From: Streptomyces lomondensis
GTDB lineage: Bacteria; Actinomycetota; Actinomycetes; Streptomycetales; Streptomycetaceae
Length of the DNA stretch: 64,000 nucleotides
Direction: 5' to 3'
NCBI RefSeq assembly: GCF_014651035.1
Contig: NZ_BMWC01000016.1
Coordinates: forward strand, 62,001 to 126,000
The translations under genes were made by a program, and so were the position numbers. Positions 18,490 through 40,093 of the stretch are shown here, one piece after another (within the stretch, counting starts at the first letter, position 1; every line of letters begins with the position of its first letter). The notes beneath the pieces are model-generated. The model had not been told where the DNA came from. It did not search any database and worked only from the letters and a program-made list of their open reading frames with translations.

Positions 18490-18491
18490 GA

Positions 18492-19004: not shown

Positions 19005-19054
19005 GGGAGCCTCCGTGGCCGCGAACGGCCGTCGTGCTGAACGGGCGTGCCGAT

Positions 19055-19096
19055 AGCTAACGCCCTCCCCCGACAGCACGTCAACAGTTTGTTGAA
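19055..19096 (-). promoter_or_regulatory. promoter and palindromic operator of the uricase operon
   Basis: On the minus strand a -35 TTGACG (19079-19084) and a -10 TTAGCT (19055-19060) are 18 bases apart. The -35 is embedded in TTCAACAAACTGTTGACG (19079-19096), containing the palindrome TCAACA-AAC-TGTTGA (19081-19095). The same 18 bases in the same relation to -35 and -10 occur before the catalase gene. An operator for a shared regulator is inferred. Confidence 0.75.
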
Positions 19097-19147
19097 AATT
19101 CCGTGTGACGAAACCCTGCGAGGCGGCGAAACCGGGCAGGCTCCCGG

Positions 19148-19516
19148 TCAGGCCCCCTTTTCGCGGTTGAGGTAGTTGTAGACGGTGAAGCGGCTGACGC
19201 CGAGGGCGCTCGCCACGGTCTCCACCCCGTGCCGTACGGAGAAGGCGCCGCGCGCCTCGAGTATCCGCACGACCTCCTGCTTGGCCTTGCGGTCCAGGTC
19301 GGCCAGCGGCATGCCCTTGCGGCGCTCCATGGCGGCGAGGATGTGATCGAGGGAGTCGGCGAGCTGCGGCAGCCGGACGGCGACGGCGTCGCGGCCCTCC
19401 CAGGACAGCACGACGTCGTCGGGGCCGGCCTCGTCCGGCGGGATCATCTCGCCGCCCATGGCGTCGACCAGCGGCTTGACGGCCGCGATGAACGGCTCGT
19501 CCCCCGGGCCGCTCAC
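19148..19516 (-). CDS. YheO/DauR-like HTH (HTH_22) regulator
   Basis: 122 residues. The C-terminal 50 residues (MPLADLDRKAKQEVVRILEARGAFSVRHGVE, then VASALGVSRFTVYNYLN) form the helix-turn-helix typical of YheO/DauR-type regulators. The N-terminal half (FIAAVKPLVDAMGGEMIP) is a short version of the sensor region, much smaller than the full YheO PAS-like domain. GTG overlaps the upstream stop by GTGA. It precedes the urate operon on the same strand, so it is a candidate local regulator, but DNA binding at the shared palindrome is untested. Confidence 0.8.
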   Translation of the reverse strand: MSGPGDEPFIAAVKPLVDAMGGEMIPPDEAGPDDVVLSWEGRDAVAVRLPQLADSLDHILAAMERRKGMPLADLDRKAKQEVVRILEARGAFSVRHGVETVASALGVSRFTVYNYLNREKGA

Positions 19517-19764
19517 GCCTCGCCCTCCTCGACGACGTTGACCTGGAGCGTGATGCGGGTGGCGCCCGCCTCCAGCGTCTTGCGGAGCAGGGCGTCCACG
19601 GCGGTGAGCACCGCGTCGGCACCGCCCTCCGCCGTGTTGCCGAACGGTCCCACGTCCACGGCGTCCAGCTCGGCGGCCTCGACGACCTCGCGGGCCACCA
19701 CGGCGTGGGCGGGCGCCTCGTCCAGGTCGAAGGGCTCGGTCGTGAACTCCACTCTCAGTCGCAC
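19513..19764 (-). CDS. small thiamine-binding-like protein (MTH1187/DUF77-like)
   Basis: 83 residues, GTG start at 19764. The sequence pattern (RVEFTTEPFDLDEAPAHAVVARE, DVGPFGNTAEGGADAVLTAVDALLRKTLEAGATRITLQVNVV) resembles the small ferredoxin-like proteins called MTH1187 thiamine-binding family. Translationally coupled to the HTH gene (GTGA). It may sense a small heterocycle for the partner regulator; that is speculation from the coupling alone. Confidence 0.65.
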   Translation of the reverse strand: MRLRVEFTTEPFDLDEAPAHAVVAREVVEAAELDAVDVGPFGNTAEGGADAVLTAVDALLRKTLEAGATRITLQVNVVEEGEA

Positions 19765-19925
19765 GCGCTCAACCTAACGCGCGACGCGGACGTTCGTGCA
19801 GCCCCTGCGATGACTCCCCGCGCGACTCCGGGACGCAGCGCCGGAAGTCGGTCACCGCGCGCGACGGACCAGTGCCTGTGCCGCGTAGAGCAGACGACGG
19901 ATCCGTACAGGGAGGGGACTGGGAG

Positions 19926-21011
19926 ATGGCAGGGCGTGTGTTCAGGGGCGGGCTCAGAGGGGCGCGGGGTACGGCGGTGGCGGCGGCCGCTCTGGCCGCG
20001 CTGACGGCGTCGCAGGCGCCGGGGGCGGCCCCGGCACGGGCCTCGGCACCCGCGCAGCAGGCATCGGGCGGGCAGGGACCGAGCGTGTCCGGCGACAGTC
20101 CGTACCGTACGGAGCTGCCGCCGCTGCGGGCCCGGAAGAACCGGGCGCAGGCGCGGGTGCCCGGCGGCGGTGCGCTGCCGGAGACGGTGTTCGCCGCGTA
20201 CCGGCACGCCGAGGCGGAGCTCACGCGCACCGCGCCGGGATGCCGGCTGCGCTGGCAGCTGCTCGCCGCGATCGGTCAGGTGGAGTCCGGGCAGGCGCGG
20301 GGCGGCCGGGTGACCGCGGACGGCACGGCCGTGACGCCGATCCTCGGCCCCCGGCTGGACGGCGCCGGGTTCGCACTCATCCGGGACAGCGACGGCGGCG
20401 CGTACGACGGGGACACCGTGTACGACCGGGCGGTCGGCCCGATGCAGTTCATCCCGTCGACCTGGGCCCGCTGGGGCGCGGACGGCAACGGCGACGGGCG
20501 GGCCGACCCGGACAACGTCTTCGACGCCGCGCTCGCCGCCGGCCGCTACCTGTGCGCGGGCGGACGGGATCTGTCGGATCCTGCCGACCTGGACCGGGCG
20601 ATCCTGGGCTACAACCACTCGCGGGCCTATCTGCGCACGGTCCTCGCCTGGTACGCGTACTTCCTGTCGGGGCACCGGGTGGTGCCGGACCGTGCCGTGA
20701 CGTCCTCGGAGCGAGCGGAGCCGTCGCGGCCCGCCTCCACGCCGAAGCCGGCGCCGAAGCCTTCGGCGAAGCCCTCGACGACGCCGTCCGCCCGCCCGAG
20801 CGCTCCCCGGCCGCGGACGCCGGCCGCGCCCGCCTCGCCCGCCCCGACCCGCCCCCGTCCGGCGGAGACGGAGGAGCCCGGGCTGCCCCTCCCCGGCACC
20901 GGCGCGGACCTCCCCGGCGACGGCCTGCTGCCCGGTGACACCCCGCTGACCGGCAACAGTGCGGACTCGATGGCCTCCGCCCCCTCCACAACCGCCGCTA
21001 CCGGGCGGTAA
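19926..21011 (+). CDS. secreted lytic murein transglycosylase with Pro-rich tail
   Basis: 361 residues. Arg-rich start and hydrophobic core form a signal peptide, probably cut near the Ala-rich region at 36-42. The catalytic domain (about 85-255) shows the SLT pattern: RWQLLAAIGQVESG with the catalytic Glu, AVGPMQFIPSTWARWGADGNGDGRADPDNVFDAALAAGRYLC, and AILGYNHSRAYLRTVL. It cleaves peptidoglycan glycan strands with anhydro-sugar formation. The last 100 residues are Pro/Thr/Ser-rich and presumably span the wall. ATG 19926 has GGAGGGGA upstream. Confidence 0.9.
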   Translation: MAGRVFRGGLRGARGTAVAAAALAALTASQAPGAAPARASAPAQQASGGQGPSVSGDSPYRTELPPLRARKNRAQARVPGGGALPETVFAAYRHAEAELTRTAPGCRLRWQLLAAIGQVESGQARGGRVTADGTAVTPILGPRLDGAGFALIRDSDGGAYDGDTVYDRAVGPMQFIPSTWARWGADGNGDGRADPDNVFDAALAAGRYLCAGGRDLSDPADLDRAILGYNHSRAYLRTVLAWYAYFLSGHRVVPDRAVTSSERAEPSRPASTPKPAPKPSAKPSTTPSARPSAPRPRTPAAPASPAPTRPRPAETEEPGLPLPGTGADLPGDGLLPGDTPLTGNSADSMASAPSTTAATGR

Positions 21012-21066
21012 TGTCGCCACCCGCCGGGCGGCACGGGCCCGGCGGGCGAGCACGAAGGGGCCCTCA

Positions 21067-22143: not shown

Positions 22144-22208
22144 GGGCGTCCGCCGGGCCGTCCGGAAACCCGTCCGAAAAAAATCGGCCTCCGCCGCGAC
22201 GGACGCCC
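22144..22208 (+). other. imperfect long hairpin with inner palindrome before the Mce operon
   Basis: Arms GGGCGTCCGCCG (22144-22155) and CGACGGACGCCC (22197-22208) pair at 11 of 12 positions around a 41-base loop that holds the perfect palindrome CCGAAAAAAATCGG (22174-22187). It lies directly after the sigma gene stop and 57 bases before the Mce ATPase. It could be a leaky terminator or a regulatory site; sequence alone does not decide. Confidence 0.4.
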
Positions 22209-22264
22209 CGCCCCTCCCCGTAGAGCAGATGTCGGAGCTGCTCCTCGGCTGAAGGGTGAACCGG

Positions 22265-23194
22265 ATGGGTGTCGAGATCTGTGTCGAAGGGCTGACCAAG
22301 TCCTTCGGTCACCAGGTCATCTGGCAGGACGTCTCGCTGACGCTGCCGGCCGGGGAGGTCTCGGTCCTGCTCGGCCCCTCGGGCACGGGCAAGTCGGTGT
22401 TCCTCAAGACGCTCGTCGGACTGCTGAAGCCGGAGCGCGGCTCGATCACGATTCAGGGCCGCGACCTCACCGGGCTCCGCGAGCACGAGCTGTACGAGGT
22501 GCGCAAGCTCTTCGGCGTGCTGTTCCAGGACGGCGCGCTGTTCGGCTCGATGAACCTGTACGACAACATCGCCTTCCCGCTGCGCGAGCACACCCGCAAG
22601 CCCGAGAGCGAGATCCGGCGCATCGTGCTGGAGAAGATGGACATGGTCGGGCTGATCGGCGCCGAGGAGAAGCTGCCCGGCGAGATCTCCGGCGGGATGC
22701 GCAAGCGGGCCGGGCTCGCCCGGGCGCTCGTCCTCGACCCGGAGATCATCCTCTTCGACGAACCCGACTCGGGCCTCGACCCGGTGCGCGTGGCCTATCT
22801 CAACCAGCTGATCGTCGACCTGAACGCGCAGATCGACGCGACCTTCCTGATCGTCACGCACGACATCGCCTCGGCCCGCCAGGTCCCGGACAACATCGGG
22901 CTGCTGTTCCGCCGCGAGCTGGTGATGTTCGGGCCCCGCGAGCGGCTGCTGGCCAGTGACGAGCCGGTCGTACGGCAGTTCCTGAACGGCCGGATGCAGG
23001 GGCCGATCGGCATGGCGGAGGAAAAAGACGCCGCGCAGGTCGAGCAGGAGCTGGCGCAGCTCACCGAGGCGCCCGTGGTGCGGGAGCCGACGCCCCGCCT
23101 GCTGCCGGGCCCCGGCATCACCCGCCCGCCCCGCTGGGAGGCGATCGCGAGACGCGAGGCCGAGTTGCGCCGCAGAGAGGCGGCGGACGCGTGA
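22265..23194 (+). CDS. Mce-type lipid ABC importer ATPase (MlaF/Mkl)
   Basis: 309 residues from ATG 22265 with GAAGGG at 22251-22256. Motifs: Walker A GPSGTGKS, signature ISGGMRKRAGLARAL (ISGGM is typical of MlaF/Mkl), Walker B IILFDEPDSGLDP and the switch His in VTHD. A 60-residue C-terminal tail, as in Mkl, follows the ATPase core. It powers lipid or sterol movement by the YrbE permeases and MceA-F tube. First gene of a tightly coupled operon running to about 33.4 kb; its stop overlaps the first permease GTG by four bases. Confidence 0.95.
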   Translation: MGVEICVEGLTKSFGHQVIWQDVSLTLPAGEVSVLLGPSGTGKSVFLKTLVGLLKPERGSITIQGRDLTGLREHELYEVRKLFGVLFQDGALFGSMNLYDNIAFPLREHTRKPESEIRRIVLEKMDMVGLIGAEEKLPGEISGGMRKRAGLARALVLDPEIILFDEPDSGLDPVRVAYLNQLIVDLNAQIDATFLIVTHDIASARQVPDNIGLLFRRELVMFGPRERLLASDEPVVRQFLNGRMQGPIGMAEEKDAAQVEQELAQLTEAPVVREPTPRLLPGPGITRPPRWEAIARREAELRRREAADA

Positions 23195-23961
23195 GCCTGT
23201 CACCGACCGGGGCGCTGCGGCAGTCGGGCAACCTGTTCGCGATGGCGCTGGACGTCGTCCGGACCATGCCCCGACGCCCCTTCCAAGTACGGGAGTTCAT
23301 CCAGCAGGCGTGGTTCATCGCGAGCGTCACGATCCTGCCCACGGCCCTCGTGTCGATTCCCTTCGGCGCGGTCATCGCGCTCCAGATCGGCAGCCTGACC
23401 CGGCAGCTCGGCGCCCAGTCCTTCGCCGGTGCCGCCTCGGTGCTCGCGGTGCTGCGGGAGGCCTCGCCGATCGTCACCGCGCTGCTGATCGCGGGCGCGG
23501 GCGGCACGGCGATCTGCGCGGACCTCGGGGCGCGCAAGATCCGCGACGAGATCGACGCCATGCAGGTCCTCGGCATCGACCCCATCCACCGTCTCGTCGT
23601 GCCCCGGGTGCTGGCCTCGATGCTGGTGGCGGTGCTGCTCAACGGCCTGGTGTCGGTGGTGGGCGTCGCGGGCGGCTACTTCTTCAACGTGGTCCTGCAG
23701 AACGGCACCCCGGGCGCCTATCTCGCCTCCTTCACCACCCTGGCGCAGCTCTCCGACCTGTGGGCGGCCGAGATCAAGGCGCTGGTGTTCGGCGCGATCG
23801 CGGCGATCGTCGCCTCGTACAAGGGGCTCACGGCGAAGGGCGGGCCGAAGGGCGTGGGGGACGCCGTCAACCAGTCGGTGGTGATCACGTTCATGTTGCT
23901 GTTCGTGACGAACTTCGTGATGACCGCCGTGTACTTCCAAGTCGTTCCGCAGAGGGGCTGA
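23191..23961 (+). CDS. MlaE/YrbE-family permease A
   Basis: 256 residues with five to six hydrophobic segments and the MlaE core pattern: QAWFIASVTILPTALVSIPFGAVIALQIG, LREASPIVTALLIAGAGGTAICADLGARKIRDEIDAM and LGIDPIHRLVVPR. It forms half of the inner channel of the Mce importer. GTG overlaps the ATPase stop. The partner permease follows after three bases. Confidence 0.95.
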   Translation: MSLSPTGALRQSGNLFAMALDVVRTMPRRPFQVREFIQQAWFIASVTILPTALVSIPFGAVIALQIGSLTRQLGAQSFAGAASVLAVLREASPIVTALLIAGAGGTAICADLGARKIRDEIDAMQVLGIDPIHRLVVPRVLASMLVAVLLNGLVSVVGVAGGYFFNVVLQNGTPGAYLASFTTLAQLSDLWAAEIKALVFGAIAAIVASYKGLTAKGGPKGVGDAVNQSVVITFMLLFVTNFVMTAVYFQVVPQRG

Positions 23962-23964
23962 GGC

Positions 23965-24768
23965 ATGGCGCTGTTGCATCGGCTGGAGGAGCTGGGCGCC
24001 CAACTGTCGTTCTACGGGCGTTCGCTGGCCTGGACCGGCCGCACCCTGCGCCGCTACAAGAAGGAGATCCTGCGGCTGCTCGCCGAGGTCAGCTTCGGGC
24101 GCGGCGCGCTCGCGGTCGTCGGCGGCACGGTCGGCGTGATCGCCTTCCTGTCGTTCTTCACCGGCACCGAGGTCGGGCTCCAGGGCTACGCGGCCCTCAA
24201 CCAGCTCGGCACCTCCAACTTCGTGGCGTTCCTGTCGGCGTACTTCAACACCCGGGAGATCGCCCCCCTGGTGGCCGGGCTCGCGCTGTCCGCGACGGTC
24301 GGTGCCGGGTTCACCGCCCAGCTCGGCGCGATGCGGATCAGCGAGGAGACCGACGCGCTGGAGGTGATGGGCGTGCCCTCGCTGCCGTTCCTCGTCACCA
24401 CCCGGATGATCGCCGGGTTCGTCGCCGTCATCCCGCTGTACGTGGTCGGGCTGCTGTCGTCGTACCTGGCCGCCCGGACCATCACCACCGTGTACCACGG
24501 GCAGTCGACGGGCACGTACGACCACTACTTCCACCAGTACCTGCCGCCGGTCGACGTGCTCTGGTCCTTCGGCAAGGTGATCGTCTTCGCCGTGCTGATC
24601 ATCCTGGTGCACTGCTACTACGGCTACTACGCGAGCGGCGGGCCGGCCGGTGTCGGTGTCGCGGTGGGCCGCGCGGTGCGGACGTCGATCGTCGCGATCA
24701 ACGTCCTGGACTTCTTCCTGAGCCTCGCGATCTGGGGCGCGAGCACGACCGTACGGATCGCGGGGTGA
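23965..24768 (+). CDS. MlaE/YrbE-family permease B
   Basis: 267 residues, paralogue of permease A with the same core: PLVAGLALSATVGAGFTAQLGAMRISEETDALEVMGV and five to six membrane segments. The loop KRDDYHY seen in many family members is replaced by TVYHGQSTGTYDHYFHQY. It completes the permease heterodimer of the Mce importer. The MceA gene starts five bases after its stop. Confidence 0.95.
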   Translation: MALLHRLEELGAQLSFYGRSLAWTGRTLRRYKKEILRLLAEVSFGRGALAVVGGTVGVIAFLSFFTGTEVGLQGYAALNQLGTSNFVAFLSAYFNTREIAPLVAGLALSATVGAGFTAQLGAMRISEETDALEVMGVPSLPFLVTTRMIAGFVAVIPLYVVGLLSSYLAARTITTVYHGQSTGTYDHYFHQYLPPVDVLWSFGKVIVFAVLIILVHCYYGYYASGGPAGVGVAVGRAVRTSIVAINVLDFFLSLAIWGASTTVRIAG

Positions 24769-24773
24769 GGCCG

Positions 24774-26027
24774 ATGAGAACCGTCCGACTACGGCTGTAC
24801 GGCATCACGTTCATCGCCGTGCTCGCACTGTTGCTGTCGCTGGCGGTGGCCGTCTACCGGCAGGCGTTCACGCCGGTGGTGCGCATCACGCTGGAGGCCG
24901 ACAGCCTGGGCAACCAGCTGGAGCCGCGCGCCGACGTCAAGCTGCGCGGGCTGCTGGTCGGCGAGGTGCGCGAGGTCAGCGCGGACGGTGCGAAGGCGAC
25001 GCTCGGCATCGCGCTCAAGCCGGAGTACGTCACGCACATCCCGGCGGACGTGCACGCGCGGCTGCTGCCCAAGACGCTGTTCGGCGAGAAGTACGTCGAC
25101 CTCGTGGCCCCCGACCGCGCCGCGTCGTCCTCGGCCCGGCCGATCCGCGCCGGGGACGTCATCACCCAGGACCGCACGAAGGCGGGGATGGAGGTGCAGC
25201 GGCTGCTGAACGACCTGCTGCCGCTGCTGCGCGCGGTCGAGCCCGGTGAACTCAGCGCCACGCTCTCGGCGTTCGCCACCGCGCTGGAGGGCCGGGGCGA
25301 CCGCATCGGCGACAACCTGACCCGGGTCGAGGCCTATCTGCGCCGGCTCAACCCGCATCTGCCGTCCCTGAAGGAGGACATCGCGCGCTTCGCCGACGTC
25401 GCCGAGGTGTACGGCGACGCCGCCCCCGACCTGATGAGGATCCTGCGCAACACCGTCACCACCAGCCGGACCCTCGTGGAGAAGCAGGACCGGCTGGCCG
25501 CGGGGCTCCGCACGACAGCCACGGTCGCGGGCACCGCGGAGGACTTCCTCGACGACAACGGCGACCGGCTGATCACCCTCGGCCGCGTCTCCCGGCCCAC
25601 GCTGGAGCTGTTCGCCCGCTACTCGCCCGAGTACCCGTGCCTGCTGGACGGCCTGGTGCGGCAGGAGCGGGTGTCGGAGGACGCGTTCCGGGGCGGCGCG
25701 ATGCGGATCACCCTCGAAGTGGTGCGGCCTCAGGGGGCGTACAAGCCCGGCGAGGAGCCGCGCTACGCCGATCGGTCGGGGCCCGACTGCCGGGGCCTGC
25801 CGCACCCGCCGGTGCCGGGACCGAAGCCCAAGCTCGACGACGGTACGTCGGCGGGGAGTCCGAGCGGTGGTGCGCCGCCCGGTGGCGTGTCCGCCACCTC
25901 CGCCGAGCAGCGGGCCGTCGGCTCGCTCGTGGCGCCCGTCCTGGGCGTACCGGCCGACGAGGTGCCGCCGGTGGCGACCCTGCTGTTCGGACCGCTGGCC
26001 CGTGGAACGGCGGTGAGCGTCGCATGA
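24774..26027 (+). CDS. Mce protein, MceA position
   Basis: 417 residues. N-terminal membrane anchor (about 8-28, GITFIAVLALLLSLAVAVY), then a single MCE domain around 38-120 with DSLGNQLEPRADVKLRGLLVGEVREV and LPKTLFGEKYVDLV. A long helical stretch follows (about 140-300, LNDLLPLLRAVEPGELSATLSA), as in mycobacterial Mce subunits that form the lipid tunnel. The C-terminal 90 residues are Pro/Gly-rich. First of six consecutive Mce subunits; it ends in a four-base overlap with the next. Confidence 0.94.
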   Translation: MRTVRLRLYGITFIAVLALLLSLAVAVYRQAFTPVVRITLEADSLGNQLEPRADVKLRGLLVGEVREVSADGAKATLGIALKPEYVTHIPADVHARLLPKTLFGEKYVDLVAPDRAASSSARPIRAGDVITQDRTKAGMEVQRLLNDLLPLLRAVEPGELSATLSAFATALEGRGDRIGDNLTRVEAYLRRLNPHLPSLKEDIARFADVAEVYGDAAPDLMRILRNTVTTSRTLVEKQDRLAAGLRTTATVAGTAEDFLDDNGDRLITLGRVSRPTLELFARYSPEYPCLLDGLVRQERVSEDAFRGGAMRITLEVVRPQGAYKPGEEPRYADRSGPDCRGLPHPPVPGPKPKLDDGTSAGSPSGGAPPGGVSATSAEQRAVGSLVAPVLGVPADEVPPVATLLFGPLARGTAVSVA

Positions 26028-27061
26028 GCACGTCCAAGGCACGCCGGACGGCCGGCCCGCTGGTCAAGTTCAGCCTCTTCACGCTGGTGACGGTCACGGC
26101 GACGGCCCTGCTCGCCGCCACCATCGTCAACCTCTCCTTCACCCCGGAGCACACCTACCGAGCGGTGTTCAGCGACGTCACCGGCCTGGAGGAGGGCGAC
26201 GACATCCGGGTGGCCGGGGTGCGGGTCGGTGAGGTCGAGGACATCCGGATCAAGGACCGGACGCTGGCCGAGGTCAGCTTCACGGTGCGCGAGGACCGTC
26301 CGCTGCTCACCAGCACCCACGCGGTCGTCCGCTACCGCAATCTGGTCGGGCAGCGGTACGTCGCCCTGACCGAGGGCGCGGGCGACGGCACCCGGCTGCG
26401 GCCCGGCGGCACGATCCCGCTGTCGCGGACGCAGCCGGCGCTGGACCTCAACGCGCTGCTGAACGGCTTCAAACCACTGTTCGCCGCGCTCAGCCCGAAG
26501 GACGTCAACCAGCTCGCCACCGAGATCATCCGGACGCTCCAGGGCGAGGGCGGCACGGTCAACAGCCTGCTCGCGCACACGGCATCGCTCACGACGACCC
26601 TCGCCAACCGCGACCGGCTGATCGGCTCGGTGATCGACAACCTCAACACCGTGCTGGCCACGCTCGACAAGCGCGGCGCCCGCTTCTCCGGGCTGCTCAA
26701 GCAGCTGCGGCGGGTGATCTCGGGGCTGTCCGCCGACCGCAAGCCCATCGGGGAGTCGCTGGTGGGCATCGGCGATCTGACCGAGGCCACGTCGGGGCTG
26801 CTCCGGGACGCCCGCCCGCCGCTGAAGGACGACATCGCCGAGCTGACCGATCTCACCGGAACGCTGAACAGGAACGAGAAGACCGTGGAGGGCGTGCTGA
26901 AGCGGCTGCCGAACAAGCTGGACGAGCTGACGGGGACGGCGTCCTACGGCTCGTGGTTCAACTTCTACCTCTGCGACTTCGACGGCCGGATCGTGCTGCC
27001 GAGGACGAAGCAGGTGCTCACTCCCGAGCTGCATGTGGCGAGGGCGAGGTGCGGCGGATGA
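26024..27061 (+). CDS. Mce protein, MceB position
   Basis: 345 residues. Membrane anchor near 14-36, MCE domain with FSDVTGLEEGDDIRVAGVRVGEVEDI and VRYRNLVGQRYVALTEG, then the helical Mce repeat region with TASLTTTLANRDRLIGSVIDNLNTVL and a C-terminal WFNFYLC signature common to MceB. ATG overlaps the MceA stop and its own stop overlaps the MceC ATG. It acts as one subunit of the heterohexameric lipid shuttle. Confidence 0.94.
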   Translation: MSTSKARRTAGPLVKFSLFTLVTVTATALLAATIVNLSFTPEHTYRAVFSDVTGLEEGDDIRVAGVRVGEVEDIRIKDRTLAEVSFTVREDRPLLTSTHAVVRYRNLVGQRYVALTEGAGDGTRLRPGGTIPLSRTQPALDLNALLNGFKPLFAALSPKDVNQLATEIIRTLQGEGGTVNSLLAHTASLTTTLANRDRLIGSVIDNLNTVLATLDKRGARFSGLLKQLRRVISGLSADRKPIGESLVGIGDLTEATSGLLRDARPPLKDDIAELTDLTGTLNRNEKTVEGVLKRLPNKLDELTGTASYGSWFNFYLCDFDGRIVLPRTKQVLTPELHVARARCGG

Positions 27062-28152
27062 CCCGGCGTGTCTTCCGGCGACGGGCCCGTCGCCCCGAGC
27101 CCTTGATGAAGGTGCGGATCATGCCGCCGAAACTGCCGGGGCTGCCGCGCCTGCGGCTGCGCCGGCCGCGTGCGAAGGCGTTCCGCGACCGCAATCCCGT
27201 GGTGATCGGCGCCGCCGGCCTCACCGCCCTGGCGCTGCTGACCCTCGCCGCGTTCAACGCCGACAGCCTGCCGCTGATCGGCGGCGGCGCGCGATACAGC
27301 GCGGCCTTCTCGGAGGCGGGCGGGCTCAAGCCGGGCGACGAGGTGCGGATCGCCGGGGTCAAGGTCGGCAAGGTCGAGGAGGTCGGCCTGGACGGCGACC
27401 ACGTCAAGGTCACGTTCAAGGTCAAGGGCGATCCGCGGTTCGGCACCGGCACCGGCGCGTCCATCCGGGTCAAGACGATCCTCGGCGCGAAGTACCTCGC
27501 CCTGCACCCCGAGGGGCCGGGCCAGTTGGAGCCGGGGAGCGAGATCCCGCTGCGGCGGACCGTCTCGGCGTACGACGTCGTGCAGGCGTTCAGCGACCTG
27601 ACGACCACGACCGAGGAGGTCGACACGCAGCGGCTCGCGAAGGCGCTGGACACCATCTCCACCACCTTCCAGGACTCGCCCGCCGAAGTACGGGCCTCCA
27701 TCAAGGGCCTGTCGCGGATCTCCCGGACGGTGGCCTCGCGCGACAAGGCGCTGCGCGAGCTCCTCGACCACGCGAACGGGGTCACCGGGGTGCTGGCCGA
27801 ACGGTCCGAGGACTTCTCCGCACTGGTCGAGGACGGCGACAAGCTGTTCAAGGAGATCAGCAAGCGGCGCGCCGCGATCCACAAGCTGCTCAAGAGCTCC
27901 GCCGCGCTCGGCATCCAGCTCTCCGGCCTGGTCGAGGACAACCGCGAGGAGATCGGGCCCGCCCTGAAGGGCCTGAACACGTTCGTCGCGATGCTCGAAC
28001 GCAACCAGAAGAGCCTGGACCGCAGCGTGCGGCTGCTCGCCCCGTACGTGCGGGTCTTCAGCAACACCCTCGGCAACGGCCGCTGGTTCGACTCCTACGT
28101 CCAGAACCTGGTGGCCGCTCCGGTGGTGCCCCGCACGGGAGGCACCCGATGA
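27058..28152 (+). CDS. Mce protein, MceC position
   Basis: 364 residues. An Arg/Pro-rich cytoplasmic start of 45 residues is longer than in its neighbours; an internal ATG codon (MKVRIMPPK) could be a later start, but the four-base overlap favours 27058. Anchor near 49-66 (VVIGAAGLTALALLTLA), MCE domain with FSEAGGLKPGDEVRIAGVKVGKVEEV and VKTILGAKYLALHPEG, then a helical region with ISRTVASRDKALRELLDHANGV. The end carries the NGRWFDSYVQN pattern typical of MceC. Confidence 0.94.
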   Translation: MTRRVFRRRARRPEPLMKVRIMPPKLPGLPRLRLRRPRAKAFRDRNPVVIGAAGLTALALLTLAAFNADSLPLIGGGARYSAAFSEAGGLKPGDEVRIAGVKVGKVEEVGLDGDHVKVTFKVKGDPRFGTGTGASIRVKTILGAKYLALHPEGPGQLEPGSEIPLRRTVSAYDVVQAFSDLTTTTEEVDTQRLAKALDTISTTFQDSPAEVRASIKGLSRISRTVASRDKALRELLDHANGVTGVLAERSEDFSALVEDGDKLFKEISKRRAAIHKLLKSSAALGIQLSGLVEDNREEIGPALKGLNTFVAMLERNQKSLDRSVRLLAPYVRVFSNTLGNGRWFDSYVQNLVAAPVVPRTGGTR

Positions 28153-29279
28153 CCGGACGTCTCAAGGCCGTCGCGCTGCTCACCGCGCTCGCGGTCGCCG
28201 CCGCGCTCGGCGTGGTGCTGTGGCCGCAGTCCGACCCGGTCCGGGTCACGGCGTACTTCCCGCGCACCGTCGGCATCTACCCCGGCTCGGACGTGCGCGT
28301 CCTCGGCGTCCGCATCGGCGAGGTCAGGAGCATCACGCCCGAGGGCGGCCGGGTGCGGGTCGAGCTGGAGTACGACAAGGCCCAGAGGGTCCCGGCCGAC
28401 GCGCAGGCGGCGATCATCAACTCCTCGGTGGTCAGCGACCGTTACGTGCAGCTGTTGCCGGTGTACCGCAAGGGCCCGGTGCTGCGGGACGGGGCCGTCA
28501 TCCCCGAGTCGCGCACCGCCGTCCCGGTCGAGCTGGACCGGATCTTCGACAGCCTGCACACCACGTCCGAGGCGCTCGGCCCGAAGGGCGCGAACAAGGA
28601 CGGTTCCCTGGCGCGGCTGCTGGGCGTGAGCGCGGACAACCTCGAAGGGCAGGGCAAGAACCTGAACCAGACGGTCGACGACCTCTCCCAGGCGGTCACC
28701 ACGCTGTCCGACGGCCGCGGCGACCTGTTCGGCACCGTGCGCAACCTCCAGGTCTTCACAGCCGCGCTGGCCGCCGACGACAAGGGCGTGCGGTCGTTCA
28801 ACAAGAGTCTCGCCGAGGTGGCCGGGCAGCTGGCCGGGGAGCGCAAGGACCTCGCGGCGGCGCTGAAGTACCTGGCCAAGGCGCTCGGTGACGTGGCCGA
28901 CTTCGTGCGGAAGAACAAGAAGACACTGGCCGCGGACGTCAAGGGCCTGAGCAAGGTCACCAAGGTGCTCGTCACCCAACGGGCCGCTCTGGAGGAGCTG
29001 TTGGAGGTGGCGCCCACCGGGCTGTCCAACCTCCAGAACGCCTACAACCCGGCCGCCGGCACCCTCGACACCCGCAACAACCCGCAGCATCCGCAGGACC
29101 CGGCCGCCCTGCTGTGCTCCCTGCTGAGGACCACCGGCGACGAGGGCGGGAAGAACCCCGACTGCGCCGAGCTGAGGAAACTCTTCGACTCCCTGCCCGA
29201 GGTGCCGAAGGCCCCGGCGGTGCCGAGCACCGGGACGGTCGACCGGAGCCTCGGCGGAATCCTGGAGGGCCGCGCATGA
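28149..29279 (+). CDS. Mce protein, MceD position
   Basis: 376 residues. Short start and anchor (about 5-25), MCE domain with YPGSDVRVLGVRIGEVRSI and NSSVVSDRYVQLLPVY, then a long helical region (SLHTTSEALGP, NLNQTVDDLSQAVTTLSDGRGDLFGTVRNLQVFTAALA). The NLNQTVDD and FTAAL stretch is the usual MceD mark. Two conserved cysteines near the end (LLCSLLR, PDCAEL) may pair outside the membrane. Overlaps both neighbours by four bases. Confidence 0.94.
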   Translation: MTGRLKAVALLTALAVAAALGVVLWPQSDPVRVTAYFPRTVGIYPGSDVRVLGVRIGEVRSITPEGGRVRVELEYDKAQRVPADAQAAIINSSVVSDRYVQLLPVYRKGPVLRDGAVIPESRTAVPVELDRIFDSLHTTSEALGPKGANKDGSLARLLGVSADNLEGQGKNLNQTVDDLSQAVTTLSDGRGDLFGTVRNLQVFTAALAADDKGVRSFNKSLAEVAGQLAGERKDLAAALKYLAKALGDVADFVRKNKKTLAADVKGLSKVTKVLVTQRAALEELLEVAPTGLSNLQNAYNPAAGTLDTRNNPQHPQDPAALLCSLLRTTGDEGGKNPDCAELRKLFDSLPEVPKAPAVPSTGTVDRSLGGILEGRA

Positions 29280-30598
29280 GCCTGCCGCGCATGAGCCTGC
29301 CGCGCAGGAGCCGGCTGGTCGCCTGGACGGCGGCCGGTTCGCTGCTGCTGACCGGCTGCGAGTTCAACGGCTGGTACGACGTGCCGCTGCCCGGCGGCGC
29401 CGCCGCGGACGGCCGTGCCTACCACGTCACGGTCGAGTTCCGGGACGTCCTGGACCTGGTGCCGCAGTCCGCGGTCAAGGTCGACGAGGTCACGGTGGGT
29501 GCCGTCGAGAAGGTCGAGCTGGACGGCTGGCACGCCCGGGTCCGGCTGCGGGTCGCCGACCATGTGAAGCTGCCCGGCAACGCGGTCGCCGAGCTGCGGC
29601 AGACCAGCATGCTCGGCGAGAAGTACGTGGCGCTGTCCGCCCCGCCGGGCACCGCACCCGCCGGCCGGCTCCGGGACGGCGACCTGATCCCGCTGTCCCG
29701 CAGCGGCCGCAACGCGGAGATCGAGGAGGTGCTGTCCGCCCTCTCCGCCCTCCTCAACGGCGGCGGCGTGGCCCAGCTCAAGACGATCACCGTGGAGCTG
29801 AACAAGGCCCTGGAGGGCCGCGAGAACCGGGTCAAGTCGCTGCTCAAGGAACTCAACACGTTCATCGGCGGCCTGGACGACCAGCGCGCGGACATCGTCC
29901 GGGCGCTCAAGGGCATCGACCGGCTGGCCAAGCGCCTCGCGAAGGAGAAGAAGACCATCGCCACGGCCGTCGACACCATGCCGCCCGCGCTGAAGGTCCT
30001 CGCCGACCAGCGGCGCGACCTGACGAAGATGCTCACCGCCCTGTCGAAGCTCGGGAAGACGGGCACGAAGGTGGTCAACGCCTCGCGGGACGACACGGTC
30101 GCGAACCTGAAGCAGCTCCGCCCCATCCTGCAGCAGCTGAACAAGGCGGGCGACGACCTGCCCAACTCCCTGGAGCTGCTGACGACCTACCCGTTCCCGC
30201 GCAACGCGGTGGACGCCGTCAAGGGCGACTACGTGAACCTCAGGGTGACCGCCGACCTGGACCTGGCGGGCATCTACGGCAACCTCACCGAGAAGCCCGG
30301 CGACGGCGGCGGCGACTCCGGCGGACCGAAGGCCCCGGACCTGCCCGACGCGCCGGATCTGCCGGCGCTGCCCGAGCTGCCGGACGTGCCGCCGGTCCCG
30401 GCACCGACCGTGCCGGACACCCCGGACCTGCCGGACACGCCCGTCGAGCCCTCGGCCCCCTCGTCCCCCTCGGACGGCGATCCGCTGTGCCCGCCGGTGT
30501 GCACCGCGGCCTACGGCCCTCCGGCCGGCTCCCACCGCCTCCCGCCGGGGATCGACCTCGATCTGGCGGAGCTCCTGCTGAAGGGGATACAGCCGTGA
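29276..30598 (+). CDS. Mce lipoprotein, MceE position
   Basis: 440 residues. Signal ends in the lipobox LTGC, so this subunit is a lipoprotein, as MceE (LprK-like) proteins are. MCE domain with FRDVLDLVPQSAVKVDEVTVGAVEKV and RQTSMLGEKYVALSAP, followed by helical repeats and YPFPRNAVDAVKGDYVNL, a conserved MceE segment. The last 100 residues contain a run of aspartate-proline-leucine repeats (DLPDAPDLPALPELPDVP). The frame opens with a duplicated MSLPRMSLPR; either methionine could start. Confidence 0.94.
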   Translation: MSLPRMSLPRRSRLVAWTAAGSLLLTGCEFNGWYDVPLPGGAAADGRAYHVTVEFRDVLDLVPQSAVKVDEVTVGAVEKVELDGWHARVRLRVADHVKLPGNAVAELRQTSMLGEKYVALSAPPGTAPAGRLRDGDLIPLSRSGRNAEIEEVLSALSALLNGGGVAQLKTITVELNKALEGRENRVKSLLKELNTFIGGLDDQRADIVRALKGIDRLAKRLAKEKKTIATAVDTMPPALKVLADQRRDLTKMLTALSKLGKTGTKVVNASRDDTVANLKQLRPILQQLNKAGDDLPNSLELLTTYPFPRNAVDAVKGDYVNLRVTADLDLAGIYGNLTEKPGDGGGDSGGPKAPDLPDAPDLPALPELPDVPPVPAPTVPDTPDLPDTPVEPSAPSSPSDGDPLCPPVCTAAYGPPAGSHRLPPGIDLDLAELLLKGIQP

Positions 30599-31869
30599 TC
30601 ACGCGTACGGTCAAGGCCCAGCTGCTCGCCTTCGCCACCGTCACCGCCGTCGGCGTGTCGTACGTCGGCGCCGAGTACACCGGCCTGGTGGACGGCCTGC
30701 TCGACCGGGGCTACACCGTGCGGGCCGACTTCGCCGACTCCGGCGGCATCTTCTCCGGCGCCGAGGTCACCTACCGCGGCGTGCCGGTGGGCCGCGTGGG
30801 CGAGCTGCGGCTGTCCGGTTCCGGGGTCTCGGTGGCCCTGGACATCGAGGACGGCGCGCCGCGCATCCCCTCGGACACGCTGGCGGTGGTGGCGAACCGC
30901 TCGGCGGTGGGCGAGCAGTACGTCGACCTGCAACCGCGCCGCACGAGCGGCCCGTACCTGCTGGACGGCAGTACGATCCCGCGCGACCGCACCCGTGTGC
31001 CGCTGCCCGTCACGGACATGGTCGTCAGCCTGGACCGGCTGGTGAACTCCGTCGGGAAGGACGATCTGCGGATCACCGTCGACGAGCTGGGCGACGCCTT
31101 CGCCGGGACGGGGCCGCGGCTGAGCCGGCTGGTGGACTCGGGCAACGCGCTCGTCGAGTCGGCGTCCGACTCGCTCCCGGAGACGATCTCGCTCATCGAG
31201 GACTCGCGCAGGGTCCTCAAGACGCAGGCCGACCAGGGCTCGTCCATCAAGTCGTTCTCCCGCGATCTGGCCACGCTCACCGCCCAGTTGAAGTCGAGCG
31301 ACGGGGACCTGCGCCGGCTGATCGGCAACACGCCGCCCGCCGGGACGGAGGTCAACTCGCTGCTGAAGTCCCTCCGGCCGGACCTGCCGGTGCTGCTGGC
31401 CAACCTCATCAGCGGCGGCCAGGTCACGCTGGCCCGGCTGCCCGGCGTGGAGCAGGCCCTGGTCACCTTCCCGGTGGTGGTCGCGGGCAGCCACACCGTC
31501 ATCCCCGGCGACGGGACCACCCACTTCGGCCTCGTCCTCAACGCCGACGACCCGCCGGCCTGCACCCAGGGCTACGACACGCGGCGGCGCGACCCCGCGG
31601 ACACCAGCAGGCGCCCGGCGAACACCGACGCGCGCTGCACCGCCCCGCGCGGCAGCGACACCTCGGTGCGCGGCGCCCAGAACGCCCCCGGCGCCTCCGG
31701 CCGCTCCAGCGGCGCCGACCGGGCGGCGTACGTCGCCCCGTACGACCCGGAGACCGGTACCGCCACCGGCCCGGACGGAACGCCCGTCGAGATCGGCTCG
31801 ACGGGCGGCGAACAGACCGTGTTCGGAAAGGACTCGTGGCAATGGCTGCTCGTCGGACCGATGGCATGA
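30595..31869 (+). CDS. Mce protein, MceF position
   Basis: 424 residues from GTG 30595. Anchor near 8-26, MCE domain with FADSGGIFSGAEVTYRGVPVGRVGEL and VANRSAVGEQYVDLQP, then helical region and the MceF segment VAGSHTVIPGDGTTHFGLVLNADDPPACTQGY. The C-terminal 100 residues are Arg/Asp/Gly-rich with no recognised domain and a probable disulfide pair. Last of the six Mce subunits; the stop overlaps the next gene by four bases if its ATG at 31866 is used. Confidence 0.94.
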   Translation: MITRTVKAQLLAFATVTAVGVSYVGAEYTGLVDGLLDRGYTVRADFADSGGIFSGAEVTYRGVPVGRVGELRLSGSGVSVALDIEDGAPRIPSDTLAVVANRSAVGEQYVDLQPRRTSGPYLLDGSTIPRDRTRVPLPVTDMVVSLDRLVNSVGKDDLRITVDELGDAFAGTGPRLSRLVDSGNALVESASDSLPETISLIEDSRRVLKTQADQGSSIKSFSRDLATLTAQLKSSDGDLRRLIGNTPPAGTEVNSLLKSLRPDLPVLLANLISGGQVTLARLPGVEQALVTFPVVVAGSHTVIPGDGTTHFGLVLNADDPPACTQGYDTRRRDPADTSRRPANTDARCTAPRGSDTSVRGAQNAPGASGRSSGADRAAYVAPYDPETGTATGPDGTPVEIGSTGGEQTVFGKDSWQWLLVGPMA

Positions 31870-32504
31870 GCGGGGGCCCGCGCCCGCTGACCGGTGGCCC
31901 GCGCCCGCTGACCGATGGCCCGCTCGCGCGGGCCGTACGACCGGTGCGGCGGCTGATCGCCGGACGGGCGGACACCCGTCGCCCCACGGCGTCGCCCGCC
32001 GGGGACCGCACCACGCCGGCCGCCGGCCGCCGGCGGGCGCTGTCGGCGGGGCTCGTCGTGGCGACGGTCCTGACCACGGCGTCGGCCCTCTGGCTGGGCT
32101 TCCAGGTGCGGGAGCAGCGCGCGGCCGAGCAGCGCCGCCAGGACATTCTGGCGGCGGCCCGGCAGTCGGCGCTGAACTTCACCTCGCTCGACTACCGGCA
32201 CTACGACCGCGACAGCGGCAACGTCCTGAAGGGCGCCACGGGCGACTTCAGGAAGCAGTTCGCCGCGCAGACCCAGGAGCTGACCAAGCTCGTCGCGCAG
32301 AACAAGTCGGTGTCCGAGGGCCAGGTCCTCGAAGCGGGCCTGGTGCGCTCGGACGCGCGGTCGGCCCGGGTCCTGGTGGTCGCCGACAGCAAGGTGACCA
32401 ACACCGCCGTGCCCAAGGGGGAGGCACGCACGTACCGGCTGCAACTCGACCTCGTCCTGGAGGGCGGCCGCTGGCTGACCTCCGACGTCGAGTTCGTCGG
32501 CTGA
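31866..32504 (+). CDS. Mce-associated membrane protein 1
   Basis: 212 residues. ATG 31866 was chosen because it gives the four-base overlap seen along this operon; GTG 31836 or ATG 31842 are possible. The start has an imperfect GPRPLT repeat, then an anchor (about 67-84, ALSAGLVVATVLTTASALW) and an extracytoplasmic NTF2-like region (ARQSALNFTSLDYRHYDRDSGNVLKGATGDF) typical of Mce-associated (Mas) proteins. These are thought to stabilise the Mce complex. Confidence 0.85.
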   Translation: MSGGPRPLTGGPRPLTDGPLARAVRPVRRLIAGRADTRRPTASPAGDRTTPAAGRRRALSAGLVVATVLTTASALWLGFQVREQRAAEQRRQDILAAARQSALNFTSLDYRHYDRDSGNVLKGATGDFRKQFAAQTQELTKLVAQNKSVSEGQVLEAGLVRSDARSARVLVVADSKVTNTAVPKGEARTYRLQLDLVLEGGRWLTSDVEFVG

Positions 32505-32541
32505 CCACCCGTCCAGCATCGAGGCTCCGAGGAGACAGACC

Positions 32542-33369
32542 GTGGCGAATCCGACCACCCGAGGCCGCGGCGCCGGCTCCCCCGCCCGCCGCACCATGAC
32601 CGCGGCCGCCCGCGCGGCGGCCAAGCGCACGCAGCGTGGGGAGCCGACGGAACGTACCGAGCGCGTGGAACGTACCGAGCGCGCGGCGCCGGAGCGGCGG
32701 CTGTCCGGGCGGACCCTGCTCGTCGAGGCGCCGGACGACGGCTGGGACGACCCGCCCGAGCCGTCGCCGGAGTTCGCCGAGGCCGTGGCGGCGGCCGAAC
32801 CGGCCGAGCCCGCCGACGTGGCCGACACGGCCGACGCGGGCGACACGGCCGTGCGAGCGCCGCGCCCATGGCGGAGGCCGCTCACCCTCGTGCTCGCCGT
32901 CCTGCTCCTGGCGGGCCTGGTCGCCGCCGCCGTGCTCGGCCGGCAGTACCTGGACGGACGGCAGGCCGGGCAGGCCCGGCAGCAGGCCCTCGCGGCGGCC
33001 CGGGCGGCGGCGCCGGTCGTCCTGTCGTACGACTACCGGCATCTGGAGCGCGACTTCGCCCGGGCGCGCACGCATCTGACCGGGAAGTTCGGCGACGAGT
33101 ACCGCAGGACCACCAAGGCCGTGGTCGGGCCGACCGCGAGGAAGTACCACGGGGTGGTGAAGGCGACGGTCGCGGAACCCGCAGGCGGCGGCGCCCCGGC
33201 GGCCTCCGTCGTGTCCGCCTCGGCGGACCGGGCGGTCGTCCTGCTCTTCGTCAACCAGGTCACCCGGAGCACCCAGGTCACGGGGTCGCGGGTGGACCTG
33301 AACCGGGTGCGCATGACACTGACCCGCACCTCCGAGGGCTGGAAGGTGAGCGCCGTCGACGCGCTGTGA
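32542..33369 (+). CDS. Mce-associated membrane protein 2
   Basis: 275 residues from GTG 32542 with GAGGAG at 32529-32534. A long charged cytoplasmic part with RTERVERTER and acidic AEPAEPADVADTAD repeats precedes the anchor (about 113-133, LTLVLAVLLLAGLVAAAVLG). The outer part APVVLSYDYRHLERDFARARTHLTGKF matches the first Mas protein (DYRHYDRD), so the two are paralogues. The last residues TLTRTSEGWKVSAVDAL end the NTF2-like fold. Last gene before the terminator. Confidence 0.87.
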   Translation: MANPTTRGRGAGSPARRTMTAAARAAAKRTQRGEPTERTERVERTERAAPERRLSGRTLLVEAPDDGWDDPPEPSPEFAEAVAAAEPAEPADVADTADAGDTAVRAPRPWRRPLTLVLAVLLLAGLVAAAVLGRQYLDGRQAGQARQQALAAARAAAPVVLSYDYRHLERDFARARTHLTGKFGDEYRRTTKAVVGPTARKYHGVVKATVAEPAGGGAPAASVVSASADRAVVLLFVNQVTRSTQVTGSRVDLNRVRMTLTRTSEGWKVSAVDAL

Positions 33370-33384
33370 ACCTTCCCTGCCGAT

Positions 33385-33417
33385 GCGCCCCCGCGCCCCC
33401 GCGCGGGGGCGCTTTTT
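33385..33417 (+). terminator. intrinsic terminator of the Mce operon
   Basis: Perfect 11-bp stem GCGCCCCCGCG / CGCGGGGGCGC with a six-base loop followed directly by TTTTT. Starts 16 bases after the stop of the last Mce-associated gene and separates the envelope block from the glyoxylate genes. Confidence 0.9.
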
Positions 33418-33428
33418 CGTGCGTGCTC

Positions 33429-33493
33429 TTGACAGTCCTTCCCAGCCACAGGCAATCTTCCATTACGCAGAAACATGATTCCGCGATACGGAA
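33429..33493 (+). promoter_or_regulatory. hyi-glxR promoter with tandem palindromic operator
   Basis: TTGACA (33429-33434) is a perfect -35; a weak -10 (GCAATC or CAATCT, about 33452-33458) follows. Directly downstream lie two operator-like palindromes: distal TTCCATTACGCAGAA (33458-33472, imperfect) and proximal TTCCGCGATACGGAA (33479-33493, perfect outer arms), centres 21 bases apart. The same pair, same spacing and order, precedes gcl. The position over the transcription start suggests repression, probably by an IclR-family protein such as AllR, which is not in the window. Confidence 0.8.
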
Positions 33494-33527
33494 TTACTGA
33501 ACTACCAGGAAGGGAGCGCCGCCCCCG

Positions 33528-34349
33528 ATGGGATTCGCAGACCAGCGCTTCAACGTCAACCTGTCGATCCTCTTCACGGAACTCCCGCTCCTGGAGCGCC
33601 CCGCGGCCGCCGCCGCGGCCGGCTTCACCGCGGTCGAGCTGTGGTGGCCCTGGGTCGACTCGCCCACGCCGGAGCGGTCCGAGCTCGACGCCCTGAAGCG
33701 GGCGATCGAGGACGCGGGCGTACAGCTCACCGGACTGAACTTCTACGCCGGGCAGCTCCCGGGCCCGGACCGCGGCGCCCTGTCGGTGCCCGGCGAGGAG
33801 TCGGAGCGGTTCCGCGCCAACATCGACGTGGCCGCCGGCTTCGCCGCCGCCCTGGGCTGCCGGGCGCTCAACGCCCTGTACGGCAACCGCGTCGAGGGCG
33901 TGGACCCGGCCGAGCAGGACGCGCTGGCGCTGGAGAACCTGGCCCTGGCGGCGCGGGCGGCCGACCGGATCGGCGCGGTGCTGCTGATCGAGGCGCTGAA
34001 CCGGCCCGAGTCACCGCGCTACCCGCTGGTGTCGGCCCCGGCCGCCGTGGGCGTCGTCGACAAGGTCAACGAGGCGACGGGGCTGGGCAACGCCCGCTTC
34101 CTCATGGACCTCTACCACCTGTCCATGAACGGCGAGGACCTCCCGGCGGTGATCGAGCGGTACGCCGCGAAGACAAGCCACGTCCAGATCGCCGACAACC
34201 CGGGCCGCGGCGCGCCGGGCACGGGCTCGCTCCCCCTCGAAGACCTCCTCGACCAGCTGAGGAAGGCGGGTTACGACGGCTGGGTCGGCCTCGAGTACAA
34301 GCCGGGCGAGCGCCCGAGCGCCGAGACCTTCGGCTGGCTGCCCCGCTGA
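33528..34349 (+). CDS. hyi: hydroxypyruvate isomerase
   Basis: 273 residues, TIM-barrel xylose-isomerase-like fold. Hallmarks: FNVNLSILFTELPLLERPAAAAAAGF, GFTAVELWWPW, LLIEALNRPESPRYPL (catalytic Glu), FLMDLYHLSMNGEDL, HVQIADNPGRGAPGTG and VGLEYKP (second metal Glu). It interconverts hydroxypyruvate and tartronate semialdehyde, the product of gcl. AGGAAGGGAG lies upstream of ATG 33528. glxR follows after 33 bases, presumably on the same transcript. Confidence 0.95.
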   Translation: MGFADQRFNVNLSILFTELPLLERPAAAAAAGFTAVELWWPWVDSPTPERSELDALKRAIEDAGVQLTGLNFYAGQLPGPDRGALSVPGEESERFRANIDVAAGFAAALGCRALNALYGNRVEGVDPAEQDALALENLALAARAADRIGAVLLIEALNRPESPRYPLVSAPAAVGVVDKVNEATGLGNARFLMDLYHLSMNGEDLPAVIERYAAKTSHVQIADNPGRGAPGTGSLPLEDLLDQLRKAGYDGWVGLEYKPGERPSAETFGWLPR

Positions 34350-34382
34350 CCCGCTGCCCCCTGTACCGAAAGGCACCCCATC

Positions 34383-35276
34383 ATGAGCAACTCCCTCCCC
34401 AAGATCGCCTGGATCGGCCTCGGCATCATGGGCTCCCCCATGTCCGAGAACCTGATCAAGGCGGGTTACGACGTCACCGGCTTCACGCTGGAGCGGGAGA
34501 AGCTGGACCGGCTGGCCGCCGCCGGCGGCACGGCCGCCGGGTCGATCGCCGAGGCCGTGCGGGACGCCGACGTCGTCATCACGATGGTGCCGGCCTCCCC
34601 GCAGGTCGAGGCCATCGCCTACGGCCCCGACGGCATCCTGGAGAACGCGCGGTCCGGCGCGCTGCTGATCGACATGTCCTCGATCACCCCGCAGACCTCG
34701 GTCGACCTGGCGAAGGCGGCCAAGGACAAGGGCATCAGGGTGCTGGACGCCCCGGTGTCCGGCGGTGAGGCCGGTGCCATCGAGGCCGTGCTGTCCATCA
34801 TGGTCGGCGGCGAACAGGCCGACTTCGACCAGGCCGAGCCGATCTTCGAGGCGCTCGGCAAGACCATCGTGCTGTGCGGTCCGCACGGCTCCGGACAGAC
34901 CGTGAAGGCCGCCAACCAGCTGATCGTCGCCGTCAACATCCAGGCGTGCGCCGAGGCCGTGGTCTTCCTGGAGAAGTCCGGCGTGGACCTGAAGGCGGCC
35001 CTGGACGTCCTCAACGGCGGCCTCGCGGGCTCCACCGTGCTGACGCGGAAGAAGGACAACTTCCTGAACCGCGACTTCAAGCCGGGCTTCCGCATCGACC
35101 TGCACCACAAGGACATGAGCATCGTCACGGACGCCGCCCGCACCGTCGGCGCGGCCCTGCCCGTCGGCGCCGTGGTCGCCCAGCTGGTCGCGTCCCTGCG
35201 CGCGCAGGGCGACGGCGGCCTGGACCACTCGGCGCTGCTGCGGGCCGTGGAGCGGCTGTCCGGCGCGCAGGTCTGA
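34383..35276 (+). CDS. glxR: 2-hydroxy-3-oxopropionate (tartronate semialdehyde) reductase
   Basis: 297 residues of the beta-hydroxyacid dehydrogenase family. Cofactor motif WIGLGIMGSPMSENL at the start, substrate motif DAPVSGGEAGAIEAVLSIMVGG near 125-140 and catalytic lysine in GSGQTVKAANQLIV near 170. It reduces tartronate semialdehyde to D-glycerate with NAD(P)H, the last step of the glyoxylate route begun by gcl. Follows hyi in the same orientation. A long GC-rich inverted repeat comes after it. Confidence 0.94.
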   Translation: MSNSLPKIAWIGLGIMGSPMSENLIKAGYDVTGFTLEREKLDRLAAAGGTAAGSIAEAVRDADVVITMVPASPQVEAIAYGPDGILENARSGALLIDMSSITPQTSVDLAKAAKDKGIRVLDAPVSGGEAGAIEAVLSIMVGGEQADFDQAEPIFEALGKTIVLCGPHGSGQTVKAANQLIVAVNIQACAEAVVFLEKSGVDLKAALDVLNGGLAGSTVLTRKKDNFLNRDFKPGFRIDLHHKDMSIVTDAARTVGAALPVGAVVAQLVASLRAQGDGGLDHSALLRAVERLSGAQV

Positions 35277-35294
35277 GGTCCGTACCCCGATACC

Positions 35295-35353
35295 CCGGGC
35301 GGCGCCGCCGCTGACACCTGTCCTGTCGCGCCCAGAGGGGCGGCGCCGCCCGG
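35295..35353 (+). terminator. long inverted repeat after glxR
   Basis: Perfect 15-base arms CCGGGCGGCGCCGCC (35295-35309) and GGCGGCGCCGCCCGG (35339-35353) flank a 29-base loop. No T tract follows. It probably ends the hyi-glxR transcript ahead of the catalase promoter. Confidence 0.55.
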
Positions 35354-35371
35354 CCCACCCATGCCCACCAA

Positions 35372-35439
35372 TTCAACAAACTGTTGACGCTCCGCTCGCC
35401 CCGACCCTAGGCTCCACAAAGCGGAAACACTTTTCCGCT
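35372..35439 (+). promoter_or_regulatory. catalase promoter with two palindromes
   Basis: TTCAACAAACTGTTGACG (35372-35389) carries the palindrome TCAACA-AAC-TGTTGA and supplies the -35 TTGACG (35384-35389). The -10 is TAGGCT (35408-35413) after 18 bases. The 18-mer is identical to that of the uricase operon promoter. A second, different palindrome AGCGGAAA-cact-TTTCCGCT (35420-35439) lies at the likely transcription start. Two regulators, or one regulator and an RNA hairpin, may act here. Confidence 0.75.

Positions 35440-38308: not shown

Positions 38309-40093
<1,785 letters not shown>

Follow-up and report, generated by a model that had tools for sequence, protein, structure and literature searches.

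The described system closest to the locus studied here is the allantoin regulon of Streptomyces coelicolor, whose pathway is reportedly repressed by AllR, a regulator of the IclR type (Navone 2015). Other systems that bear comparison are the YheO/DauR-type regulators, built of PAS_6 and HTH_22 domains, the small ligand-binding Thiamine_BP proteins of the MTH1187/YkoF type, the urate-responsive MarR repressors HucR, PecS and UrtR, and the peroxide-sensing regulators of catalase genes, CatR, FurA and OxyR. Uricase makes hydrogen peroxide, and in a 64,000-nucleotide stretch of Streptomyces lomondensis DNA (contig NZ_BMWC01000016.1, positions 62,001 to 126,000; hereafter the window) a preliminary inspection made from the letters alone, which we call the sequence-only reading, had noticed an identical 18-base-pair element before the uricase operon, uraD-uraH-uricase, and before a catalase gene. 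Our analysis indicates that the conserved core of this element, which we term motif A, is very probably a real operator, and it points to a pair of small proteins encoded beside the uricase operon as the best candidate for its regulator.

The locus resembles the AllR regulon in its genes and their surroundings (allB, alc, gcl, hyi, aceB) and would likewise be governed by a local pathway repressor, but co-occurrence links AllR to a different palindrome, motif B, and uricase carries motif A only. One protein of the candidate pair shares the C-terminal DNA-binding HTH_22 domain with the YheO/DauR-type regulators; unlike these, it is without PAS, is accompanied by or fused to a Thiamine_BP-like domain and stands at a urate operon. 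The latter domain resembles the Thiamine_BP family (PF01910), with a match above the cut-off in the fused protein, but is here coupled to a DNA-binding domain. As with HucR, PecS and UrtR, a pathway metabolite would derepress urate-pathway genes, although the protein family beside the operator differs, and as with CatR, FurA and OxyR a catalase would be the target, here however tied to purine genes by the shared motif A.

The 18-mer TTCAACAAACTGTTGACG occurs in the window in exactly two copies, before the uricase operon and before the catalase gene (Table 1), as the sequence-only reading had it. Dinucleotide shuffles of the window (n=100) yielded zero matches to it, even allowing 3 mismatches, and its first 16 bases are found at only these two sites across the 8.78 Mb genome. 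The genes named in that reading were borne out by Pfam matches, namely 2-oxo-4-hydroxy-4-carboxy-5-ureidoimidazoline (OHCU) decarboxylase, 5-hydroxyisourate (HIU) hydrolase and uricase on the minus strand and catalase on the plus strand, and so was the promoter layout, in which TTGACG is followed after 18 nucleotides by TTAGCT at uraD and by TAGGCT at the catalase gene. This geometry is conserved, since the best -10, TTAGCT, lies at 17-18 nucleotides in 78 of 80 uraD promoters, and TA(G/C)GCT lies at the same distance in 35 of 37 catalase promoters. The proposed palindrome TCAACA-AAC-TGTTGA is real, but the conserved unit turned out to be TTCAACA-N3-TGTTGA(A/C) plus TTGACG, and the AAC centre common to both copies is partly a coincidence because most relatives have AAG at uraD. 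The separation of 16 kb, in turn, is true of this genome but peculiar to it: an mce operon intervenes here, whereas in most relatives the two operators are typically about 2.8 kb apart.

Conservation was assessed by scoring the upstream regions of Streptomyces orthologues for TTCAACA-N3-TGTTGA[A/C], with motif A counted as present within 2 mismatches. The palindrome preceded uraD in all 80 loci, and it was found in 38/38 catalase promoters and 32/32 allB promoters, so that the search of orthologous loci proposed by the sequence-only reading found it in each of the uraD, catalase and allB promoters examined. It was absent from the promoters of hyi (0/64), gcl (0/56) and glxR (0/63), together 0/183, and the best match in shuffled promoters had at least 4 mismatches. 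Among the 63 testable glxR loci, motif A was present in all 39 with a catalase gene and missing in all 24 without one (Fisher p = 6e-18). As a whole, 117 of 121 Streptomyces genomes contained motif A, while a reversed control pattern had zero matches in any of the 121. Since the loci share ancestry these counts are not independent events, and more weight attaches to the contrast between different genes within the same loci. A chance repeat is ruled out by the shuffles, the genome-wide uniqueness and the conservation across Streptomyces; the suggested joint control of uricase and catalase is supported by a motif that is conserved and that is present or missing along with the catalase gene, and conservation likewise supports the predicted membership of both in one motif A regulon. 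In some catalase promoters a second copy of motif A lies about 22 bp from the first (L026:7112, L042:1663, L062:7097).

The regulon defined by motif A extends beyond the uricase and catalase operons. This genome holds a third strong copy at C16:29649-29665, in the allB-allR spacer, 51 kb upstream and beyond the window; the twelve inspected sites with 2 mismatches all sit within predicted reading frames and therefore look like background. In other genomes, conserved motif A precedes ureABC, a xanthine permease gene, a PF04126 cyclophilin-like gene, DUF6986 and, in the distant actinomycete G457, xdh. The cyclophilin-like gene stands beside cydAB with motif A in 29 of 84 sampled loci, which suggests that it may have a role in purine metabolism. 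In S. coelicolor the OHCU decarboxylase gene SCO6209, SCO6247, SCO6248 and the xanthine dehydrogenase gene SCO4972 change together (PMC6629963), which fits one regulon although it is no proof of it.

The candidate regulator is encoded by two genes next to the uraD promoter, one for an HTH_22 protein and one for a Thiamine_BP-like protein, which overlap by 4 nucleotides and are adjacent in 76 of 78 loci. Motif A is present in all 26 Actinomycetes genomes that have an HTH_22 orthologue, against 24 of the 271 that have none, where it mostly occurs as single scattered sites (Fisher p = 8e-24, relatedness uncorrected), and three Streptomyces without HTH_22 have no motif A. In G457, which belongs to another family, a single 190-amino-acid protein contains both the Thiamine_BP and the HTH_22 domain, each above its Pfam cut-off; it is encoded directly upstream of the identical motif A 17-mer and uricase, and it shares the recognition helix RFTVYNYLN with the Streptomyces HTH_22 proteins. 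The PF01910 score was 41.2 bits for this fused protein and 23.0 bits for the window protein, against a cut-off of 24.9; a PDB search with the fused protein matched MTH1187 (1lxn) weakly (E=0.17), and a fold search with a structure model of the HTH_22 protein (mean predicted local distance difference test score 86.6) gave no significant PDB match. The sequence-only reading had put forward the HTH_22 protein as a YheO-type regulator: as a candidate it is now the best supported, by the co-occurrence and the G457 fusion, but it is without the PAS domain of YheO, as its 122 amino acids gave no PAS_6 match and contain the HTH_22 domain alone. The genome G010 was withdrawn as proof that loss of HTH_22 entails loss of motif A; its HTH_22 reading frame is broken and its allB motif A is gone, but the copy at uraD is retained with a single change, TTTAACAAACTGTTGAC.

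We therefore favour, with a probability of roughly 0.6, a model in which motif A is a purine-degradation operator bound by a local repressor, with the HTH_22/Thiamine_BP-like pair as the best candidate for it. Like the two halves of the fused G457 protein, the HTH_22 protein and the Thiamine_BP-like protein would work together, the first reading the DNA and the second acting as sensor. When purines are absent, the repressor would sit on the -35 at both uraD and catalase and on the allB start site. Its release by a pathway metabolite, for which urate, allantoin or allantoate are candidates, would start the breakdown of urate and the removal of peroxide at the same time. Motif A overlaps the -35 of the uraD and catalase promoters; at allB it begins 2-3 nucleotides past the -10 and covers the start site, and at the cyclophilin-like gene it lies on the start codon. 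A repressor is the simplest fit to all these positions. We infer repression, an inducer and a sensor role for the Thiamine_BP-like protein.

Several observations weigh against this model. The centre of motif A is near -41 at uraD and catalase, a position that would suit an activator too, and the regulator may be encoded elsewhere. The promoter of the HTH_22 gene itself has no motif A, and part of the co-occurrence is mere linkage because HTH_22 adjoins uraD in nearly all genomes. In the genome G120 (950 contigs) uraD and HTH_22 are missing, while a perfect motif A is kept at allB; this may reflect a gap in the assembly, or it may be a genuine exception. The genome G197 (L290), also without HTH_22, has at its allB-allR site a perfect palindrome with changed arms, TTCGACGTTTCGTCGAA; most of allB is lost there as well, and allR is kept. 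Finally, the uricase operon of S. coelicolor is reported to go down under oxidative stress via SenR, a different input (PMC4991794).

If true, the model would describe a dedicated catalase that is induced by the same metabolic signal as uricase, thus anticipating peroxide rather than awaiting oxidative stress. It would also provide a function for an orphan regulator pair widespread in Streptomyces, hint at the class of ligand that a Thiamine_BP-like domain binds, and bring unstudied genes (the PF04126 cyclophilin-like gene and DUF6986) into purine metabolism, all through an operator that is short, well defined and easily tested. Our literature search, which did not extend to Navone 2015, found no paper giving SCO6207 or SCO6208 a purine-regulator role; by gene order these numbers presumably denote the regulator pair in S. 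coelicolor, where the catalase gene is SCO6204. We consider the architecture of the regulator novel and the catalase an unusual member of a local metabolic regulon, and Navone 2015 may already describe motif A.

Motif B, a second palindrome of the form TTCCGC-N3-GCGGAA, is distinct from motif A. It was found within 2 mismatches upstream of hyi in 63 of 64 cases, of gcl in 52 of 56 and of allR in 30 of 32, in 29 of 32 allB-allR regions, and in 28 of 38 catalase promoters (37 of 38 within 3 mismatches), and in just 2 of 80 uraD promoters. Both motifs occur in the allB-allR spacer and, alone among the examined enzyme genes of the window, at catalase, which thus seems to be under the control of the urate branch as well as the glyoxylate branch. 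Judging from its distribution, we infer that motif B belongs to AllR. A bolder proposal would make the split factor, a Thiamine_BP-like sensor and an HTH_22 reader that are fused in some actinomycetes, the master urate repressor of Streptomyces, linking peroxide removal through the shared operator, with catalase integrating the split factor and AllR; to this we give even odds.

Alternatively, AllR, encoded beside allB, might itself read motif A and control uricase, catalase and allantoinase, leaving motif B to another protein or as a second AllR site. The reported role of AllR as the allantoin-pathway repressor speaks for this, as do the position of allR, which in 31 of 32 promoter regions is transcribed away from allB with motif A in the spacer, and the genome G120, which has AllR and motif A without HTH_22. 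We nevertheless regard it as unlikely. AllR has no orthologue in two Streptomyces genomes, G211 and G073, which keep both HTH_22 and motif A at uraD, so that motif A does not occur only where AllR does, and AllR as its reader was demoted on this ground; moreover, in G073 one side of motif B before hyi has decayed, TTCCGCATAATGAAA. Conversely, G043, G113, G228 and G197 have kept AllR but not HTH_22, and an exact motif A is missing from all four; motif-B-like sites precede aceB in G043 and G312. The hyi gene, which is said to be an AllR target, has motif B almost throughout and motif A in no case. This double dissociation speaks for HTH_22 as the reader of motif A and AllR as that of motif B, with the limits that the genomes without HTH_22 have mostly lost the target genes too and that just two genomes are without AllR, of which G073 is a fragmented assembly.

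Less probable still, an unlinked factor, for instance of the MarR/PecS or TetR type, would read motif A, and HTH_22 would merely travel with uraD. The linkage that inflates the co-occurrence, the HTH_22 promoter without motif A and the case of G120 are all in keeping with such a factor, but the linkage, the fusion and the conserved recognition helix persist in G457, in another family, and two loci (L070 and L101) have lost HTH_22 from beside uraD yet retain it elsewhere in the genome. As for the repeat being just a strong shared promoter sequence of the -35 region with no regulator, its overlap with TTGACG in both promoters is what one would then expect; yet a 17-nucleotide palindrome is far longer than a -35, and hyi and gcl promoters with similar -35s have no motif A. 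We consider this explanation highly improbable and reject it because of where motif A lies at two other targets: downstream of the -10 at allB and over the start codon of the cyclophilin-like gene, positions at which it cannot be part of a promoter.

Table 1. Features of the window, with positions counted from its first nucleotide (ORF, open reading frame)
Feature	Position	Strand	Remarks
Motif A operator, uraD	19079..19096	-	Overlaps -35 of uraD-uraH-uricase promoter
uraD promoter -10 TTAGCT	19055..19060	-	18 nucleotides past -35 TTGACG at 19079-19084
uraD, OHCU decarboxylase	18492..19004	-	PF09349 on enclosing ORF 18492-19622; start 19004 picked by reading
uraH, HIU hydrolase	18076..18489	-	PF00576 on enclosing ORF 18076-18921
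Uricase	17146..18069	-	PF01014
Amidohydrolase, named guaD here	15648..17027	-	PF01979; conserved place after uricase
Xanthine/uracil-family permease	14018..15424	-	PF00860
HTH_22 protein, 122 amino acids, proposed DNA-binding half of motif A regulator	19148..19516	-	PF13309 E=1.2e-20
Thiamine_BP-like (MTH1187/YkoF-type) protein, 83 amino acids, proposed sensor half	19513..19764	-	PF01910 E=7.7e-5, slightly below cut-off
mce operon (ABC ATPase, two MlaE permeases, several MlaD/Mce4 proteins)	22256-33369	+	Between regulator pair and hyi
Motif B TTCCGCGATACGGAA	33479..33493	+	Upstream of hyi
hyi, hydroxypyruvate isomerase	33528..34349	+	TIGR03234 E=3.9e-96, below curated cut-off
glxR, tartronate semialdehyde reductase	34383..35276	+	TIGR01505
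Motif A operator, catalase	35372..35389	+	Overlaps catalase promoter -35
Catalase promoter -10 TAGGCT	35408..35413	+	
Motif-B-like palindrome GCGGAAACACTTTTCCGC, putative second operator	35421..35438	+	Just after catalase -10
Monofunctional haem catalase	35463..36920	+	PF00199
gcl, glyoxylate carboligase	38309..40093	-	TIGR01504
Motif B TTCCGCAATACGGAA	40152..40166	-	Upstream of gcl

Some further sites were observed in other genomes. In many Streptomyces, L132:5740, L107 and L118 among them, the cyclophilin-like gene runs divergently from cydAB, and its start codon carries a perfect motif A. DUF6986, which resembles HpcH/HpaI aldolases, stands directly downstream of motif A at L141:5048, L149:5852 and L320:8793, and a gene similar to it adjoins the uricase cluster of G457. 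A motif-A-like palindrome is found between isochorismatase genes and a regulator of the DJ-1/AraC type at L147:4962 and L145:5149, where it may belong to that regulator instead.

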